Position numbers and translations under genes: made by a program | Notes under the pieces: generated by a model | The model's input: the letters and a program-made list of their open reading frames with translations, nothing else | The model's database searches: none | Told to the model about the DNA's origin: nothing | NCBI RefSeq assembly: GCF_008016455.1 | Contig: NZ_SAXU01000001.1 | Coordinates: 1-64,000, forward strand | DNA from: Brachyspira aalborgi | Lineage (GTDB): Bacteria; Spirochaetota; Brachyspiria; Brachyspirales; Brachyspiraceae | DNA length: 64,000 nt | Reading direction: 5' to 3' | Shown: one piece after another, positions 48,933 through 57,325 of the stretch | Position numbering within the stretch: position 1 is the stretch's first letter | How the letters are laid out: each line of letters starts with the position of its first letter

Positions 48933-50633
48933 GTGCCAAGATACGAACCTTATAAATCTAGATATAAAGGCAATTATACAAGACAAATAAAAAACGAAAG
49001 CAAGGAAATAAATTTAAAAAAACCTTTAATAATATCGGTAGCTTTTATAATATTTGCATCGGTTATATTTTCTATTATAAAAAATTATTCTCCCGTAGTA
49101 GATATTGCAATAAAAGATTTTTTTAGCATTAATCATAGAGAAGCTTTGGCTTTGGAAAGCGATGGAATTGAAGAAGATTCCGATAAATTGAGTTTTTTAA
49201 GCAATATTCCTTTATTTAGTTTTTTTATTAAATCCGATACAAATCAAACTTTATCCGTTATGGCTTATGAAACAAATTCAAAATTGGAAACTACTTTAAG
49301 CGAAAATGAAAGCGATAATAATTTTACTAATTCTAATTTAATAAGTAGAGAATCTTTGCTTCCTTTTTTTAATGAAAATTTTAATACAAATTATAATTCG
49401 AGCATATATAGAGAAAATCAAAATAATAATATTAATAATGCCAAAGAAAATAAACCTTATAATTATATTGAGCAGATGATAATAGATAGCAGAAAAAACG
49501 ATAATTCTATTAGCGAAATAAATAATAAATCTGCAAATAATAATTCAACAAAAAATAATTCTAATAATATTTTTTATAATTCTTCAACTTCTCCAAATTC
49601 AAGTATTTTTGAAGAAATATTAAAACCAAAAGAAAATTCTGAAAAAGTCGTAAAAACTATGAAGCCCGCATCGACAAGTTTTAGTTCGCAAATTCCAAAT
49701 TATATGCAAAATAATAAAAGGGAAAATGCAAATAATAATTTATATAATAAGGCAAGCAATAATTATAATAATTATTTTAAAGATATTGAATATAAAAGTG
49801 AGACTAAAAAAAATAATAACGATAGAGAAAGAATAATTAACGCTGCGACAAATAGAAACGATATAAAAGATAAAAAAGATAATAATGCCGTTAAATCAGT
49901 AAGCAGAAAAAATATAATAGAAGAGACAATTTTTAATAATCAAAATTTTCAAAAAACTTCGGATTATGACAGAGTAATTAACGATATGGTTAATCCAAAT
50001 TTAAATAATAATATTGTTAGAGATAATAATAAAAATAATAATAATTTAAACGATACGAAAAATAATATAAATAATATAAATAGAGAAGAGCCTGTAAAAA
50101 GAAATGATAAAATAGATAAAAAAGAGATAATGAAAAAAGCTAATAACGATGTGGCAAAATATAAAAGACAAAAAGCGAATAATAAAATAAACAGAGATTT
50201 TAATAATATAAAAACGAAATCGAAAGACGAAGGAATTTATTTAGTAGAATATAACGAAAACTCGGGAGCTATAACTTTAATATTTAGAAATAGAAATTTT
50301 AAAAATGAAGCGTCTATTGAAAATGCGATAAAAACTCTTCTTAACGGAGCGACTGACGATGAAAATAATAAAAATATAATAAGCTGCATTCCGAAAAATA
50401 CTCAATTACTCGACATATTTGTTGAAGACGACACGGTTTATTTGAACTTTAACGAAGATTTTGAATTTAATCCTTTAGGAAACGAAGGAACTATGATTCA
50501 AATATATCAATTAGTTTATACGGCGACTCAATTTGAAGGAATAGACAAAGTTATATTTTTAATAGACGGCAATTTAAACGAGACAATCGGAGCGGAAGGT
50601 TCTATAGAAAATACAGCTTTTACAAGATTTTAA
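48933..50633 (+). CDS. Membrane-anchored GerMN-domain protein with Asn-rich linker
   Basis: 566 residues. A short basic N-terminus and one membrane helix (about 31-50) are followed by roughly 350 residues of low-complexity, Asn/Lys/Ser-rich sequence with no fold. A C-terminal GerMN domain (about 430-566) follows: ITLIFRNRNF, AIKTLLNG, DDTVYLNFNEDF, ALYTAT-like VYTATQFEGIDKVIFLIDG. GerMN occurs in spore-germination GerM and in envelope proteins of non-spore-formers. It starts at GTG with CGGAG nine bases upstream. Probably periplasmic; role unknown. Confidence 0.72.
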   Translation: MPRYEPYKSRYKGNYTRQIKNESKEINLKKPLIISVAFIIFASVIFSIIKNYSPVVDIAIKDFFSINHREALALESDGIEEDSDKLSFLSNIPLFSFFIKSDTNQTLSVMAYETNSKLETTLSENESDNNFTNSNLISRESLLPFFNENFNTNYNSSIYRENQNNNINNAKENKPYNYIEQMIIDSRKNDNSISEINNKSANNNSTKNNSNNIFYNSSTSPNSSIFEEILKPKENSEKVVKTMKPASTSFSSQIPNYMQNNKRENANNNLYNKASNNYNNYFKDIEYKSETKKNNNDRERIINAATNRNDIKDKKDNNAVKSVSRKNIIEETIFNNQNFQKTSDYDRVINDMVNPNLNNNIVRDNNKNNNNLNDTKNNINNINREEPVKRNDKIDKKEIMKKANNDVAKYKRQKANNKINRDFNNIKTKSKDEGIYLVEYNENSGAITLIFRNRNFKNEASIENAIKTLLNGATDDENNKNIISCIPKNTQLLDIFVEDDTVYLNFNEDFEFNPLGNEGTMIQIYQLVYTATQFEGIDKVIFLIDGNLNETIGAEGSIENTAFTRF

Positions 50634-50836: not shown

Positions 50837-51316
50837 ATGAAAATGAAAGAATATATTTTAAAAAATAGCATAAGCGATGTAGCTGGTTTAGTAAAAGATA
50901 TATCTTCTGAAATATCGGATTATTTAGACGAAGCAAATTTAAACTTATTCGCAGCGGCTTTATACGAAGTGGCAATAAACGCTATTGAACATGGAAATTT
51001 AGGAATATCTTACGAAGCAAAAAAAGAATGGATTGAAAAAAATATATATCATGAAAAACTATCCGAACTTTTAAAAACCGAAAAGGCAAAAAATACTTTT
51101 GTGGAAATAAAATTAAATATTGAAAACGATTGTATAACTTTAATCGTTGAAGATAAAGGACAAGGTTTTAAACCCAATATGGAAATGGAAAAAATAAAAA
51201 AAGAAAGTTGTATAAGAAATAGCGGAAGAGGTATGATGATGATGAAAAGCTATTTTGACGAGATAAAATATAATAAAACGGGAAACGCTATAACTTTAAT
51301 AAAAAACATAAAATAG
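50837..51316 (+). CDS. RsbW-like serine kinase/anti-sigma ATPase domain protein
   Basis: 159 residues, a stand-alone GHKL ATPase (HATPase_c_2). The N box is ALYEVAINAIEHGN, G1 VEDKGQGFKP and G2 SGRGMMMMKSYF. Single-domain proteins of this type are usually anti-sigma or anti-anti-sigma kinases (RsbW/RsbT/SpoIIAB). The next gene, a Nudix-histidine kinase fusion, starts five bases after its stop, so they are likely partners in one signalling unit. No RsbV-like antagonist is adjacent. The first ATG or an ATG two codons on could be the start. Confidence 0.8.
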   Translation: MKMKEYILKNSISDVAGLVKDISSEISDYLDEANLNLFAAALYEVAINAIEHGNLGISYEAKKEWIEKNIYHEKLSELLKTEKAKNTFVEIKLNIENDCITLIVEDKGQGFKPNMEMEKIKKESCIRNSGRGMMMMKSYFDEIKYNKTGNAITLIKNIK

Positions 51317-51320
51317 ATTA

Positions 51321-52874
51321 ATGAGCAGAAAAAATATAAAGAAAGTAAAAGATACAAAATTTTTCCATAAATCTCCGCCTATAGAATTAAACACGGGATT
51401 TGTAAGTTTAGAGAGATTTATCGCCATAAACGAATACGATGATGAAACTTTTTCAAAAGAATATAATTGCGATATTATAAACAGAAAAGGCAGAGACGCG
51501 GTTATAATAGTTCCTTATTCTTATATAGAAAATCAATTAAATGTTTTAATGATAACTAACTTTCGTCCCGTAGTTTATTATAGAGAAAAAGTAATGACGA
51601 ATAAGAAGCCCGAAGATATAGACGAAAATATAATTAACTTTTTAGAATTTCCCGCGGGAATGCTTGAAGAAGACGAAATGAACGCTAAAGACGAACAGTT
51701 GGGAATAAAAAAATGCGCTCAAAGAGAATTGGAAGAAGAAACGGGTTATAGCGTTCCTTTAAAAAATATTAATGTGCTTGGACATAATTATTATAGTTCT
51801 TCGGGAATAATAACGGAAAGAATAAATATTGCCACTTGCGATATAACGGGAATAGAGCCTAAAAAAAAGCCAAAAACTGACGGTTCGGTTATGGAAGAGA
51901 ATATAGAACATTTTTTTGTGCAGTTTAACGAGGCTATGAAATGGTGCAAAGAAGGAATAATAAAAAATGCGGGAACAGAGATTGGACTTAATAGATTATA
52001 TTTTTCTATTCAATACGAACATCAAAGAAAGCATAATTTAATTTTGCAAAGAAGATTAAAATCTCTTTTGCATGAAATTAATTCGTTAAAGAAAAACGCC
52101 GATTATTATAATAAACTTATAAGAGAGTTTAAGGCTACGGTTACGCATGAACTTCGTCATCCTTTTACCGAGATAATGGGATTTATTAATTTGCTTAAAA
52201 AGAAAAATTTAAACGAAGATAAAAAAGAAGAAGCTATTAATGTAATTTCAAGAAGCTTAAAAAAACTTTATGAAACAAATAATAATTTAATACAAATTAC
52301 GATTAAAGACGATGAAGATTCTAAATATTTGTCGGAATTTAATATTGAAGAAGAATTAAATATTATGATTGAAGGATATAAATCCGTTTATCCTAAAGAT
52401 ATCGAGACAAAAATCGAAGTTGAAAAAAATTGCAATATTTTAATAGGCTATAAAGAAAGATTTAAACTCATAATGGAAGGAATAATATCAAACGCGTTCA
52501 AATTTACAAAATCGGGAAGCATTAATATAAATGTTAGAATCCCCGATATTATAGAAAAAAAGAATTTAGATTTTTCGCCCGATTTATTTAATTATCATTC
52601 TATGAAAAATATTATGCCAAACGAAATAGAAATAATCGTTAAAGATACGGGAAAAGGAATTAAACAAAGACAACTTAAAAAAATATTTATTCCTTTTTAT
52701 CAAGGCGATTCGAGATTTGAAAGAGAATACGGCGGAATAGGAATCGGGCTTTCGGTAGTTAAAGATTTGCTTGATACGATGCAAGGCTCTATATATATTG
52801 ACAGTTCTGAAGGAGCGGGAACTATAGTAAAATTAAGAATACCTTTCGGAATTCCAAGTAAAAGTAAAATTTAA
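51321..52874 (+). CDS. Nudix domain-histidine kinase fusion
   Basis: 517 residues. Residues about 55-225 are a Nudix hydrolase domain: EFPAGMLEEDE followed by R135-ELEEETGY. The Nudix box is intact at both ends but carries 15 residues instead of seven between E119 and R135. A linker/coil (about 230-265) leads to a HisKA dimerisation domain with H276 in ATVTHELRHPF. The ATPase domain has N391 (IISNAFKF), DTGKGI and YGGIGIGLSV. The kinase parts look active. The Nudix domain probably senses or hydrolyses a nucleotide such as ADP-ribose. No membrane segment and no adjacent response regulator. It converges with the anti-sigma gene. Confidence 0.83.
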   Translation: MSRKNIKKVKDTKFFHKSPPIELNTGFVSLERFIAINEYDDETFSKEYNCDIINRKGRDAVIIVPYSYIENQLNVLMITNFRPVVYYREKVMTNKKPEDIDENIINFLEFPAGMLEEDEMNAKDEQLGIKKCAQRELEEETGYSVPLKNINVLGHNYYSSSGIITERINIATCDITGIEPKKKPKTDGSVMEENIEHFFVQFNEAMKWCKEGIIKNAGTEIGLNRLYFSIQYEHQRKHNLILQRRLKSLLHEINSLKKNADYYNKLIREFKATVTHELRHPFTEIMGFINLLKKKNLNEDKKEEAINVISRSLKKLYETNNNLIQITIKDDEDSKYLSEFNIEEELNIMIEGYKSVYPKDIETKIEVEKNCNILIGYKERFKLIMEGIISNAFKFTKSGSININVRIPDIIEKKNLDFSPDLFNYHSMKNIMPNEIEIIVKDTGKGIKQRQLKKIFIPFYQGDSRFEREYGGIGIGLSVVKDLLDTMQGSIYIDSSEGAGTIVKLRIPFGIPSKSKI

Positions 52875-52887
52875 TATTTTAATATTT

Positions 52888-53346
52888 TTAATCTCTTCCT
52901 ACATAATACATATAAGACGATAATATTGTTATCTCATCGTTATCTGTATTTTCTTCTTCGCTATAATCGTTAAAGTATGCGGACAAAGGAACATAATCGC
53001 CATATCCGTCTCCGTCAATATCTTGAACTATAGGTTCGTTTGAAGCTATAATTTCCTCTCTTACATTATTATTAAAATTTTTATTTAATATAATAATAGA
53101 CGCTACAAATATTAAAAGTATAGCCGCTATTGAAATAATATAAGGATAAAAATTATTTTTAACTTTATTAATCGTTATCGATTTATTTCCAGATAATATT
53201 GAAGATATAGAATCGATATCGGATTTAAATTTTCTGCATGACGGACAATTTAATAAATGTTTTTCCATTTCAAGTATTTCTTCGGCGTTTAAATCTTTAT
53301 CTTTGTGTCTGCTTATAAGCATTTCATAATATTCATGTTGTCTCAT
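52888..53346 (-). CDS. Zinc-finger anti-sigma factor (membrane)
   Basis: 152 residues. The ZAS motif H-x3-C-x2-C is seen in EKHLLNCPSCRKF (about 28-40), one membrane helix lies at about 68-88, and an acidic extracytoplasmic C-terminus of about 60 residues follows. It would hold the ECF sigma factor at the membrane and release it after regulated proteolysis. Its start overlaps the sigma gene stop by four bases. The RseP-type site-2 protease gene is 1.2 kb away on the other strand. Confidence 0.87.
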   Translation of the reverse strand: MRQHEYYEMLISRHKDKDLNAEEILEMEKHLLNCPSCRKFKSDIDSISSILSGNKSITINKVKNNFYPYIISIAAILLIFVASIIILNKNFNNNVREEIIASNEPIVQDIDGDGYGDYVPLSAYFNDYSEEENTDNDEITILSSYMYYVGRD

Positions 53347-53891
53347 AAACTTACTCCCATTTTTTTAATTATAGATAAAAGTTTTTTTCTCGCTCTAAAA
53401 ATTCTCGTTCTAATCGTATTAACGGGCAAATCAAGTTTTTTAGAAATTTCTTCATAAGAATAATTTTCATATTCCGACATAAGAAAAGGAATTCTAAAAG
53501 TCTCGTTTAATTTCGATAAAGCGTCCGCTAATATAATTTTATTTATGCTATTATCGTTTCCCGATTCTTGCATTTCAAAATTTCTATATTCTTTAAGCCT
53601 ATATTTTTTTTCTCTCTCTTTTTTTCTTATATAATCAATAGCTCTATTAAAAGAAACTCTATAAAGCCAAGTATAGATTTTCGACCTGCCTTCAAAACTC
53701 TCTCTCTTTATATAAAAACTCACAAAAGTATCTTGCACTATCTCTTCTGCTTCTTCATAATCTGAAATAATAGAATAAACCAAATTAACCAAAGGCTTTT
53801 TATAGTTTTCCATAAGTTCTTTATAAGCTTCTTCGTTAGAGGATTTAAAAGCTTCTATATTGTCTTCATAAGTCATTTCAACACCGTTCAT
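53343..53891 (-). CDS. ECF RNA polymerase sigma factor
   Basis: 182 residues. Region 2 has YSIISDYEEAEEIVQDTFVSFYIKR and a TWLYRVSFNRAIDYIRKK helix. Region 4 has LPFLMSE-like RIPFLMSEYENYSYEEISKKLDLPVNTIRTRIFRARKKL, a full helix-turn-helix. Regions 1.1 and 3 are absent, as in ECF factors. AAGGA is eight bases before the ATG. It is the middle gene of Spy-like/sigma/anti-sigma and is probably transcribed from the ECF-type promoter at 54406-54431, so it activates itself. Confidence 0.93.
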   Translation of the reverse strand: MNGVEMTYEDNIEAFKSSNEEAYKELMENYKKPLVNLVYSIISDYEEAEEIVQDTFVSFYIKRESFEGRSKIYTWLYRVSFNRAIDYIRKKEREKKYRLKEYRNFEMQESGNDNSINKIILADALSKLNETFRIPFLMSEYENYSYEEISKKLDLPVNTIRTRIFRARKKLLSIIKKMGVSL

Positions 53892-53923
53892 AATTATATC
53901 CTTAAAATAAAAAGATATATGCC

Positions 53924-54352
53924 TTATTTTTTATATTTATTTAATTGAACTCTCTGTTCGGGAGTCAAAATTCCTATTATATCCAAATCTCTAAATATAA
54001 TCAAACAATCTCTTTCCGCTTCTATTTCTTTCTTTCTTTTTATTAAATCTCTTAATATATTTCTATCGGGATTATCTTTAATAAGCTCGTTTTTTATATT
54101 ATAATCAATCTCTTCTATTTTTATTCTAATCGATTTCTCATCGTTTACAAATTTGATGGCTATATCGTATATTCTATTTGTTTGAGCGGATGTTAGAGTT
54201 ATTCCCGCTTTTCTAAAAAAATGCATCGGGTCTGGTCCTAATTTATCCTTATGAGGTTTCTTTCCATGTTGATGCGGAGGAGGCGGAGGCTGCCCATAAA
54301 CCGATAAAAATAACATTGTAAATATTGCTAAAATATAAAATATCTTTTTCAT
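53924..54352 (-). CDS. Spy/CpxP-like periplasmic protein
   Basis: 142 residues. Signal peptide (1-20, ending VYGQ), a Pro-rich then His/Lys-rich stretch (PPPPPHQHGKKPHKDK), and two LTxxQ motifs: TLTSAQTNRI and ILTPEQRVQL. Helices between them match the Spy/CpxP/heavy-metal-sensing fold, a periplasmic chaperone or sensor. First gene of the ECF operon, so it may report envelope stress or feed back on it. Confidence 0.8.
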   Translation of the reverse strand: MKKIFYILAIFTMLFLSVYGQPPPPPHQHGKKPHKDKLGPDPMHFFRKAGITLTSAQTNRIYDIAIKFVNDEKSIRIKIEEIDYNIKNELIKDNPDRNILRDLIKRKKEIEAERDCLIIFRDLDIIGILTPEQRVQLNKYKK

Positions 54353-55995: not shown

Positions 55996-57090
55996 TTATA
56001 TATTTTCAAATTCGTTAAAAATAATTTTAAATTTATCTATATTCAAATAAAAATCGAAATCGTTATTTTTATTACGGTTATTATGATATTTAAAATTTGT
56101 TTCATCGCATTCTATATATTCGTAATATTTTCCGCCTAATTTTTCTAATATGGCTTTATAAGTATCTTCCAATCTATTATTAGGAACTATGCCAAGAACG
56201 GCTATGGTTTCTTTTGAACATACTAAATTAGTAAGTCCGCTTCCTAAAACGGATATTATTTTATCGGCATTGTAAAAAAGACAAAATTGTTCTTCTAAAG
56301 AATAATCTTCAGGATATATAATTTCGTATTCAAAAGGTTTTATCATTTTTATTAATTTATCTTCGTTTAATATTCTTCTCGTTTTTACATTTTTTCTGCT
56401 TAAATATATTTTTTTTAGGGAATTTATTTTTTTCGTATTTCTTCATTAATTCTTTTGTTAATTCTCGGTATTTATCGCAAATCCATTTTGAAGGATAATG
56501 AGTCGTTTCGCTTGGGAATGAAGATAAATATAAATTCTTGCATATAATCTCCGTTTGGTCTGAAATATATATTATCTTTTTATTTTCTAAATTGAATATT
56601 TTAAACTGTCTTTATGGAATTTAGTTTTGCATCCGTCTCCCAATATAAAGGCGTCTATTTTATCCAAAAATCCAGCGTCTTTTAAAATAAATAATTTAGG
56701 CAAAGTTTCATGTATCCAATGTCCAAAACAAACATTCCATATTGATTGCAAACTAAAAACATTTAAATCGGTTTTCTTTTTAAATCTAAAATTATAAAAT
56801 GCAAATCTTCCTCCAAGTTCTTCGGATAATCGCAATATTCTATCGTAAGGTAAAACTTCTTTTATTATTTTGTTGTCGCTTGTAAAATAAAATCCCCAAC
56901 TTGAATAAACTTTTGCATTATTTATTTTGCATAAAAACATTTCTAAATCTGAATTATCGTATTTTACGGGAATATATAATTCTTTATCTATATCTTTTAT
57001 TGAAACGGAATTAATTTTTAATTTATCTATAATTTTTAATCCAATTTTATGTCTTATTTTGCCGTTTAATAATTTATTACCGAAGCCCAT
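55996..57090 (-). pseudogene. Glycosyltransferase family 61 gene broken by two frameshifts
   Basis: The first frame (57090-56587) has GHWIHETLPKLFILKDAG, typical of GT61 (DUF563) proteins. It stops early near TTTT at 56599-56602; one more A on the coding strand would restore it. The middle continues in another frame to a run of eight T (56409-56416), where one base fewer restores the original frame. The last part reads VLGSGLTNLVCSKETIAVLG, the GT61 motif. The two shifts compensate, so 56416-56599 is the only wrong-frame part. The best start is ATG 57090 with GGAGG five bases upstream. The cause could be decay or sequencing error. Confidence 0.8.
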
Positions 57091-57325
57091 TTGAGCCTCC
57101 AAAAACGGCGGATATATTGCGATAATTTAGATTTATAAATATTGCTATAAATGCAAAATCAAAAAATCTTGCAATGCAAAAAAATATTTTTAAGTCATAA
57201 TAATATGTTGACGGTTGACGGTTGACGGTTGACGGTTGACGGTTGACGGTTGACGGTTGACGGTTGACGGTTGACGGTTGACGGTTGACAGTCACCAAAG
57301 TATTAAATAAGAATTTTAATATCAT
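57077..57325 (-). CDS. Possible repeat-encoded leader ORF overlapping the GT61 start
   Basis: An open frame from ATG 57325 reads through all 11.9 repeat units as a TVNRQPS pattern and stops at 57077, 14 bases inside the GT61 gene. It would couple translation at the present repeat number; in the frame entered by one unit fewer a TAA occurs about 50 bases before the GT61 ATG. The ATG lies almost at the predicted transcript start and has no ribosome site, so translation is doubtful. Confidence 0.3.
   Translation of the reverse strand: MILKFLFNTLVTVNRQPSTVNRQPSTVNRQPSTVNRQPSTYYYDLKIFFCIARFFDFAFIAIFINLNYRNISAVFGGSNGLR
57207..57289 (+). repeat. Heptanucleotide tandem repeat GTTGACG x11.9
   Basis: Eleven perfect GTTGACG units (57207-57283) plus six bases of a twelfth. 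It lies between the promoter (57335-57362) and the start (57090) of the GT61 gene, in its leader. Seven is not a multiple of three, so unit changes shift any leader frame. Confidence 0.97.

Follow-up and report, generated by a model that had tools for sequence, protein, structure and literature searches.

A Nudix-histidine kinase fusion conserved across the Brachyspirales, with a proposed place in a partner-switching pathway

The stretch of Brachyspira aalborgi DNA analysed here (the window; 64,000 nucleotides of a 2.5 Mb genome) encodes a soluble orphan histidine kinase in which a Nudix domain takes the place of a sensor domain, and which is preceded by a gene for a stand-alone GHKL ATPase. 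The fusion is real, ancient, and conserved. Its full architecture is present once per genome in all 31 Brachyspirales sampled (26 genomes of the genus, three of the family and two of the order) and in none of 361 other Spirochaetota, and the Nudix part alone, used as a query against the 392 spirochaete genomes at E 1e-8, returns the same 31 genomes and no other. With all 31 genomes of the order in agreement, chance, artefact and pseudogene, against which an earlier note on this DNA had to be weighed, are ruled out. The reading we favour is that the Nudix domain provides the input of the kinase, which would signal through a REC-PP2C phosphatase and STAS proteins to the ATPase; we give this whole model a probability of roughly 40%.

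Both genes lie on the forward strand. The ATPase gene (50837–51316; 159 aa) matches HATPase_c_2 above the cut-off (PF13581, 1.4e-12), and its TAG stop is followed after a gap of four bases by the ATG of the kinase gene (51321–52874; 517 aa). Reading from the N-terminus, the kinase consists of an AdpP-type Nudix domain, a helical linker, HisKA and HATPase, with Pfam matches to NUDIX (2.5e-6), HisKA (1.4e-7) and HATPase_c (5.5e-19) that are all above their gathering scores. No transmembrane segment is apparent in its sequence, Pfam recognises no sensor domain in it besides the Nudix domain, and no response regulator adjoins the pair at this locus. Pfam and alignment thus bear out the earlier note in its description of a soluble, Nudix-bearing kinase with intact H276, N391 and G boxes and no adjacent regulator.

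The earlier note also took the ATPase gene to begin the unit, and this holds in 28 of the 31 genomes, where it lies directly upstream of the kinase on the same strand. The genes flanking the pair vary between genomes while the pair itself is kept, which argues that the pairing is selected and is not simply an inherited neighbourhood; we propose that the two products form one signalling unit. In three genomes (G010, G029 and G030) the ATPase gene is not upstream of the kinase, so the kinase can presumably work without it as a neighbour. Among 72,556 plasmids we found no relative covering 80% of the kinase, and a single scan of genome contigs, made with peptides close to those of Brachyspira, gave matches only to Brachyspira or other spirochaetes.

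The Nudix domain is a clear homologue of AdpP. In the whole protein, TIGR00052 (YffH/AdpP) matches residues 25–225 (51393–51995), N-terminal sheet domain included, at 1.1e-17, with a score of 64–67 bits (66.8 bits, E 1.8e-18) that falls below the curated naming cut-off of 79.55, and we therefore assign family membership by homology and not by curated score. When an eleven-member family profile was compared with solved structures, it matched ADP-ribose pyrophosphatases (ADPRases) and the GDP-mannose hydrolase NudK with E-values between 1e-11 and 1e-9; the alignment with the E. coli ADPRase spans the whole Nudix domain. The N-terminal sheet domain makes ADPRases domain-swapped dimers. AlphaFold2 models built from 12 sequences were poor (pLDDT 53 and 48); in these low-confidence models residues 217–258 form a helix and the linker leads without interruption from the Nudix domain into HisKA, and predicted structure together with conserved alignment places a long linking helix at residues ~217–266 (51969–52118). 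Foldseek searches with the same low-confidence models ranked ADP-ribose pyrophosphatases first, weakly (E ~0.02, TM ~0.2).

The Nudix box (51657–51749) reads G113-x5-E119-x15-R135-ELEEETGY, as against the consensus G-x5-E-x7-REUXEEXGU. Both halves are intact and the metal glutamates are invariant, and the 15 residues between E119 and R135, where seven are standard, confirm the eight-residue expansion that had been noticed at the outset. The expansion is of eight residues in every Brachyspira, eight or nine in other Brachyspiraceae, and about five in a further member of the order (L033). Beyond the box, M191-E192-E193 (51891–51899), which is invariant in the order, aligns with ENED of the E. 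coli ADPRase and EDED of NudK, such that the catalytic glutamate of loop 9 is present. Within the box R135, E136, E139, E140 and G142 are invariant across the order in the alignment, and the YYSS-x-G turn, D187-G-S-x-M-E-E193, G212-x-I-x-N216 and T219-E220 are likewise invariant or nearly so; this pattern argues for purifying selection on an enzyme-like site and not for decay. The worry that the expansion might break the domain is weakened by the invariance of the metal-ligand glutamates and of the loop-9 residues.

The kinase half has the features of a HisKA-type histidine kinase. The phospho-acceptor H276 lies in the sequence T-HELRHP of the HisKA domain (52122–52301), and the HATPase_c domain (52455–52847) carries N391 and the G1 and G2 boxes (DTGKGI and GGIGIGL), all of which are intact here and unchanged in the relatives. 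Where histidine kinases also act as phosphatases, the fourth position after the histidine is usually T or N (HExxT/N). The H-box here (52146–52163) is HELRHP, the form HELxHP is kept across the order, and the histidine that replaces T/N at H+4 is invariant; because of this substitution phosphatase activity is possibly weak, and the kinase may lack it altogether. Between the N and G1 boxes there is also an insert, SPDLFNYH (~52575–52598), which is invariant throughout the order and for which we found no explanation; it could be a partner-binding surface. To our knowledge neither the HELxHP H-box nor this insert fits a described rule. The protein plausibly functions in the manner of a sensor histidine kinase, its predicted sensor being of an unusual kind.

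The ATPase is the only HATPase_c_2 protein of the genome, and the earlier description of it as RsbW-like is right as to the domain but not as to the sub-family. Curated RsbW and SpoIIAB models score it at 26 bits against cut-offs of 135–155, and in the alignment an insert of about 30 residues follows its N box (EHGN-LGISYEAKK...; 50999–51094), which is common to TciR/PAS-type ATPases and absent from short RsbW-type proteins; the low score and the insert together rule out a plain RsbW. One solved relative was found, a chain of 304 aa named SenB (9qih_A), whose matched part has the same insert. Elsewhere among the spirochaetes, the sequences most similar to it over its full length make up the C-terminal half of REC-ATPase or PAS-ATPase proteins, and the Brachyspira protein begins directly at the ATPase domain with no receiver in front of it. 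By its sequence, then, it is a stand-alone form of the output domain of REC-ATPase (TciR-like) or PAS-ATPase proteins and not a classical RsbW, and because its sub-type differs from that of RsbW a STAS partner is not assured. In other spirochaetes a CheX-like gene was found once beside REC-ATPase and PAS-ATPase genes, whose remaining neighbours encode unrelated enzymes. At two other Brachyspira loci a second, short RsbW-type ATPase gene lies convergent with the Nudix kinase (L092:10718-11164 and L093:7080-7511); there is none in this genome.

An inventory of the genome gave five HisKA kinases, five STAS genes, three PP2C genes and seven sigma factors. The PhoR-like and NtrB-like HisKA kinases adjoin response regulators, whereas the Nudix kinase is an orphan. 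One of the PP2C proteins carries a receiver domain (REC-PP2C; C1:1147398-1148555) and is itself an orphan by position. All 30 Brachyspirales sampled for it have it, with matches at E 1e-90 or better; those beyond the order are much weaker. Its gene adjoins mrdA/rodA-like cell-shape genes (L112), which raises the possibility that partner switching is connected with growth of the cell wall. Chains that run from a histidine kinase through a REC-PP2C and a STAS protein to RsbW are known, as in RsbK-RsbY and RsfS-RsfR (PMC10950880), and on the strength of this precedent and of the inventory we take the REC-PP2C to be the most likely receiver.

Under the model we favour, the N-terminal domain, descended from an AdpP/YffH ADP-ribose pyrophosphatase, would act as the input of a histidine kinase that is cytoplasmic and dimeric. 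It would bind, and probably hydrolyse, ADP-ribose or a related NDP-X, thereby changing the linker helix and with it the autophosphorylation of H276, from which the phosphate would most likely pass to the orphan REC-PP2C. The REC-PP2C would determine how far STAS proteins are phosphorylated; these would in turn bind the single HATPase_c_2 ATPase, whose gene is presumably co-transcribed with that of the kinase, and the ATPase would then sequester or release a target that is possibly a sigma factor with a region 3. In favour of the model are the intact HisKA and HATPase domains, the AdpP-type Nudix domain with its invariant glutamates, and the retention of the pair amid differing flanks. Several observations count against it. 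No gene connects the pair with the REC-PP2C or with any STAS gene, the genome has further orphan receivers (single-domain, REC-GGDEF and MerR-like REC proteins), in three genomes the kinase has no ATPase gene beside it, and a proline associated with ADPRases has been lost from the Nudix domain in Brachyspira (see below).

The main rival, which we nevertheless think unlikely, does without the PP2C step. The ATPase would be the output half of a TciR-like regulator that has no receiver of its own, and either a phosphorylated single-domain receiver would dock on it or the kinase would contact it directly, as a split version of the TciK-TciR arrangement. REC-RsbW regulators under a histidine kinase have been described (TciK-TciR; PMC12826045), the nearest full-length homologues of the ATPase in spirochaetes are REC-ATPase proteins that share its sub-family insert, and several orphan single-domain receivers are available in the genome. 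The tree, however, places the ATPase weakly and does not nest the Brachyspiraceae proteins firmly among the REC-ATPases (support 74/89), and there is no receiver gene near the pair.

A second alternative concerns the ligand and leaves the Nudix domain as the sensor. It could respond to an NDP-sugar, a dinucleoside polyphosphate, an alarmone or an NAD derivative, or could bind its ligand without hydrolysis in the manner of NrtR and BtAraR. Published rules assign D-x-K on the last helix to NDP-sugar hydrolases, and a proline about 15 residues past the Nudix box, in SPG, to ADPRases (PMC4629899). The kinase has N-A-G at the D-x-K position, like N-A-A of the E. coli ADPRase, and the missing D-x-K speaks against an NDP-sugar hydrolase. 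The proline is also missing in the genus Brachyspira, where the sequence is SSSG, although most outer relatives keep it as SSPG or TAPG (L030-L033). This loss and the expanded box could have shifted specificity, the substrates of Nudix enzymes are wide-ranging, the profile E-values are similar for the NudK and ADPRase structures, and members of the NrtR family sense ADP-ribose or arabinose (PMC6800001, PMC4666351). Against a pure binding domain stand the invariant metal and loop-9 glutamates, which such a domain would not need. We consider a different ligand or a non-hydrolysing sensor rather improbable. The origin of the Nudix domain from an ADPRase is well supported by alignment and profile comparison, and the TIGR00052 match and the likeness to ADPRases make ADP-ribose, which the earlier note had named, a sensible guess.

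The distribution of the AdpP family in these bacteria also speaks for the favoured model. In a survey of 120 relatives with TIGR00052 only, all 29 Brachyspiraceae and G029 have a single match each, which is the fused copy, so that no AdpP-family Nudix domain besides the fused one was detected in any of the Brachyspiraceae; in G030 a free-standing copy accompanies the fused one. Outside the order 48 spirochaetes gave matches, and every one of these lies in a short open frame, consistent with free-standing enzymes. The fullest version of the favoured model would make the sensor a working ADP-ribose pyrophosphatase in a two-component system for ADP-ribose and NAD turnover, which by consuming its ligand would reset itself; the fusion would have replaced the free enzyme throughout the Brachyspiraceae and would feed the single partner-switching ATPase of the cell. 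Taken together these claims are doubtful, if less so than the rivals considered here.

The same distribution could be read the other way, with the Nudix domain as a housekeeping ADP-ribose hydrolase to which a kinase has been attached for regulation or co-localisation of the enzyme, the true signal coming from elsewhere. Its status as the only AdpP-family domain left in the Brachyspiraceae genomes, with its catalytic residues intact, would fit such a role. A signal from elsewhere sits poorly with a kinase that has no other recognisable sensor domain and whose linker, in the predicted structure, leads straight from the Nudix domain into HisKA, and we judge this reading quite unlikely.

RsbW-class proteins classically bind sigma factors that have a region 3. 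The earlier note suggested testing the ATPase against the ECF sigma factor encoded at 53343–53891; that this is its target has very little chance of being correct: the gene is close by in this genome and in G006, G007, G015 and G026, but it is convergent and in an operon with its own zf-HC2 anti-sigma gene, many Brachyspira lack it next to the pair (loci L090, L092, L093 and L096), and G010 has the ECF module and the kinase without the ATPase, so that we reject this target on the zf-HC2 partner and on synteny. An envelope-stress-like module of three genes (52888–54352), kept in several Brachyspiraceae, consists of the ECF sigma factor, the zf-HC2 anti-sigma factor and a small secreted Metal_resist/LTXXQ-like (CpxP-like) protein. 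Elsewhere in the window, a 566-aa protein (48933–50633) of this bacterium, which does not sporulate, carries at its C-terminus a Germane (GerMN) domain, preceded by a long low-complexity stretch rich in Asn and Lys, and a short tandem repeat coding for STVNRQP several times (57077–57325) lies between two open reading frames and is probably an intergenic minisatellite.

In the open-access literature we found no description of a Nudix-HisKA fusion, nor of any histidine kinase with an intact Nudix enzyme as its input. Our analysis suggests that these cells read ADP-ribose-like nucleotides, a product of NAD breakdown, by a two-component route. If ADP-ribose is turned over, the protein would connect NAD breakdown (by sirtuins, ADP-ribosylation or phage-defence NADases) directly with a phosphorelay, and the sensor would remove the signal to which it responds; it is also the first candidate input for partner switching in the Brachyspirales. 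Every sampled genome of this order of gut spirochaetes, which includes intestinal species of pigs and humans, has exactly one copy of the fusion, and loss-of-function and purified-protein tests are therefore simple to frame.

Among known systems, the closest in overall composition are RsbK-RsbY of Bacillus cereus and RsfS-RsfR of Mycobacterium smegmatis (PMC10950880), since a histidine kinase, a REC-PP2C, STAS proteins and an RsbW-class ATPase are all present in the Brachyspira genome. They differ in that the input in Brachyspira is Nudix and not CHASE3 or GAF, and that the kinase gene sits with the ATPase and not with the REC-PP2C, the links between the components being candidates only. The REC-RsbW regulator TciR and its kinase TciK have been studied genetically in Vogesella indigofera, and such proteins have been noted in spirochaetes (PMC12826045). 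This system also combines a histidine kinase with an RsbW-like ATPase, and spirochaete REC-ATPases carry the nearest homologues of the Brachyspira ATPase; the latter, however, lacks a receiver and is encoded by a separate gene, and the kinase has a Nudix input. NrtR and BtAraR (PMC6800001, PMC4666351), in which a Nudix domain is joined to a winged-helix DNA-binding domain, are likewise regulators that sense a nucleotide or sugar through Nudix, as predicted here, whereas in Brachyspira the output is a histidine kinase and the catalytic residues are intact. The parent family itself, AdpP/NudF (TIGR00052; PDB 1g0s, 9b1z), has the same N-terminal sheet domain, box and loop-9 glutamates and N-A-x-[ST] C-terminal helix, from which the Brachyspira domain departs by its 5–9 extra box residues, the loss of the SPG proline in the genus, a score below the cut-off, and its fusion to HisKA-HATPase.
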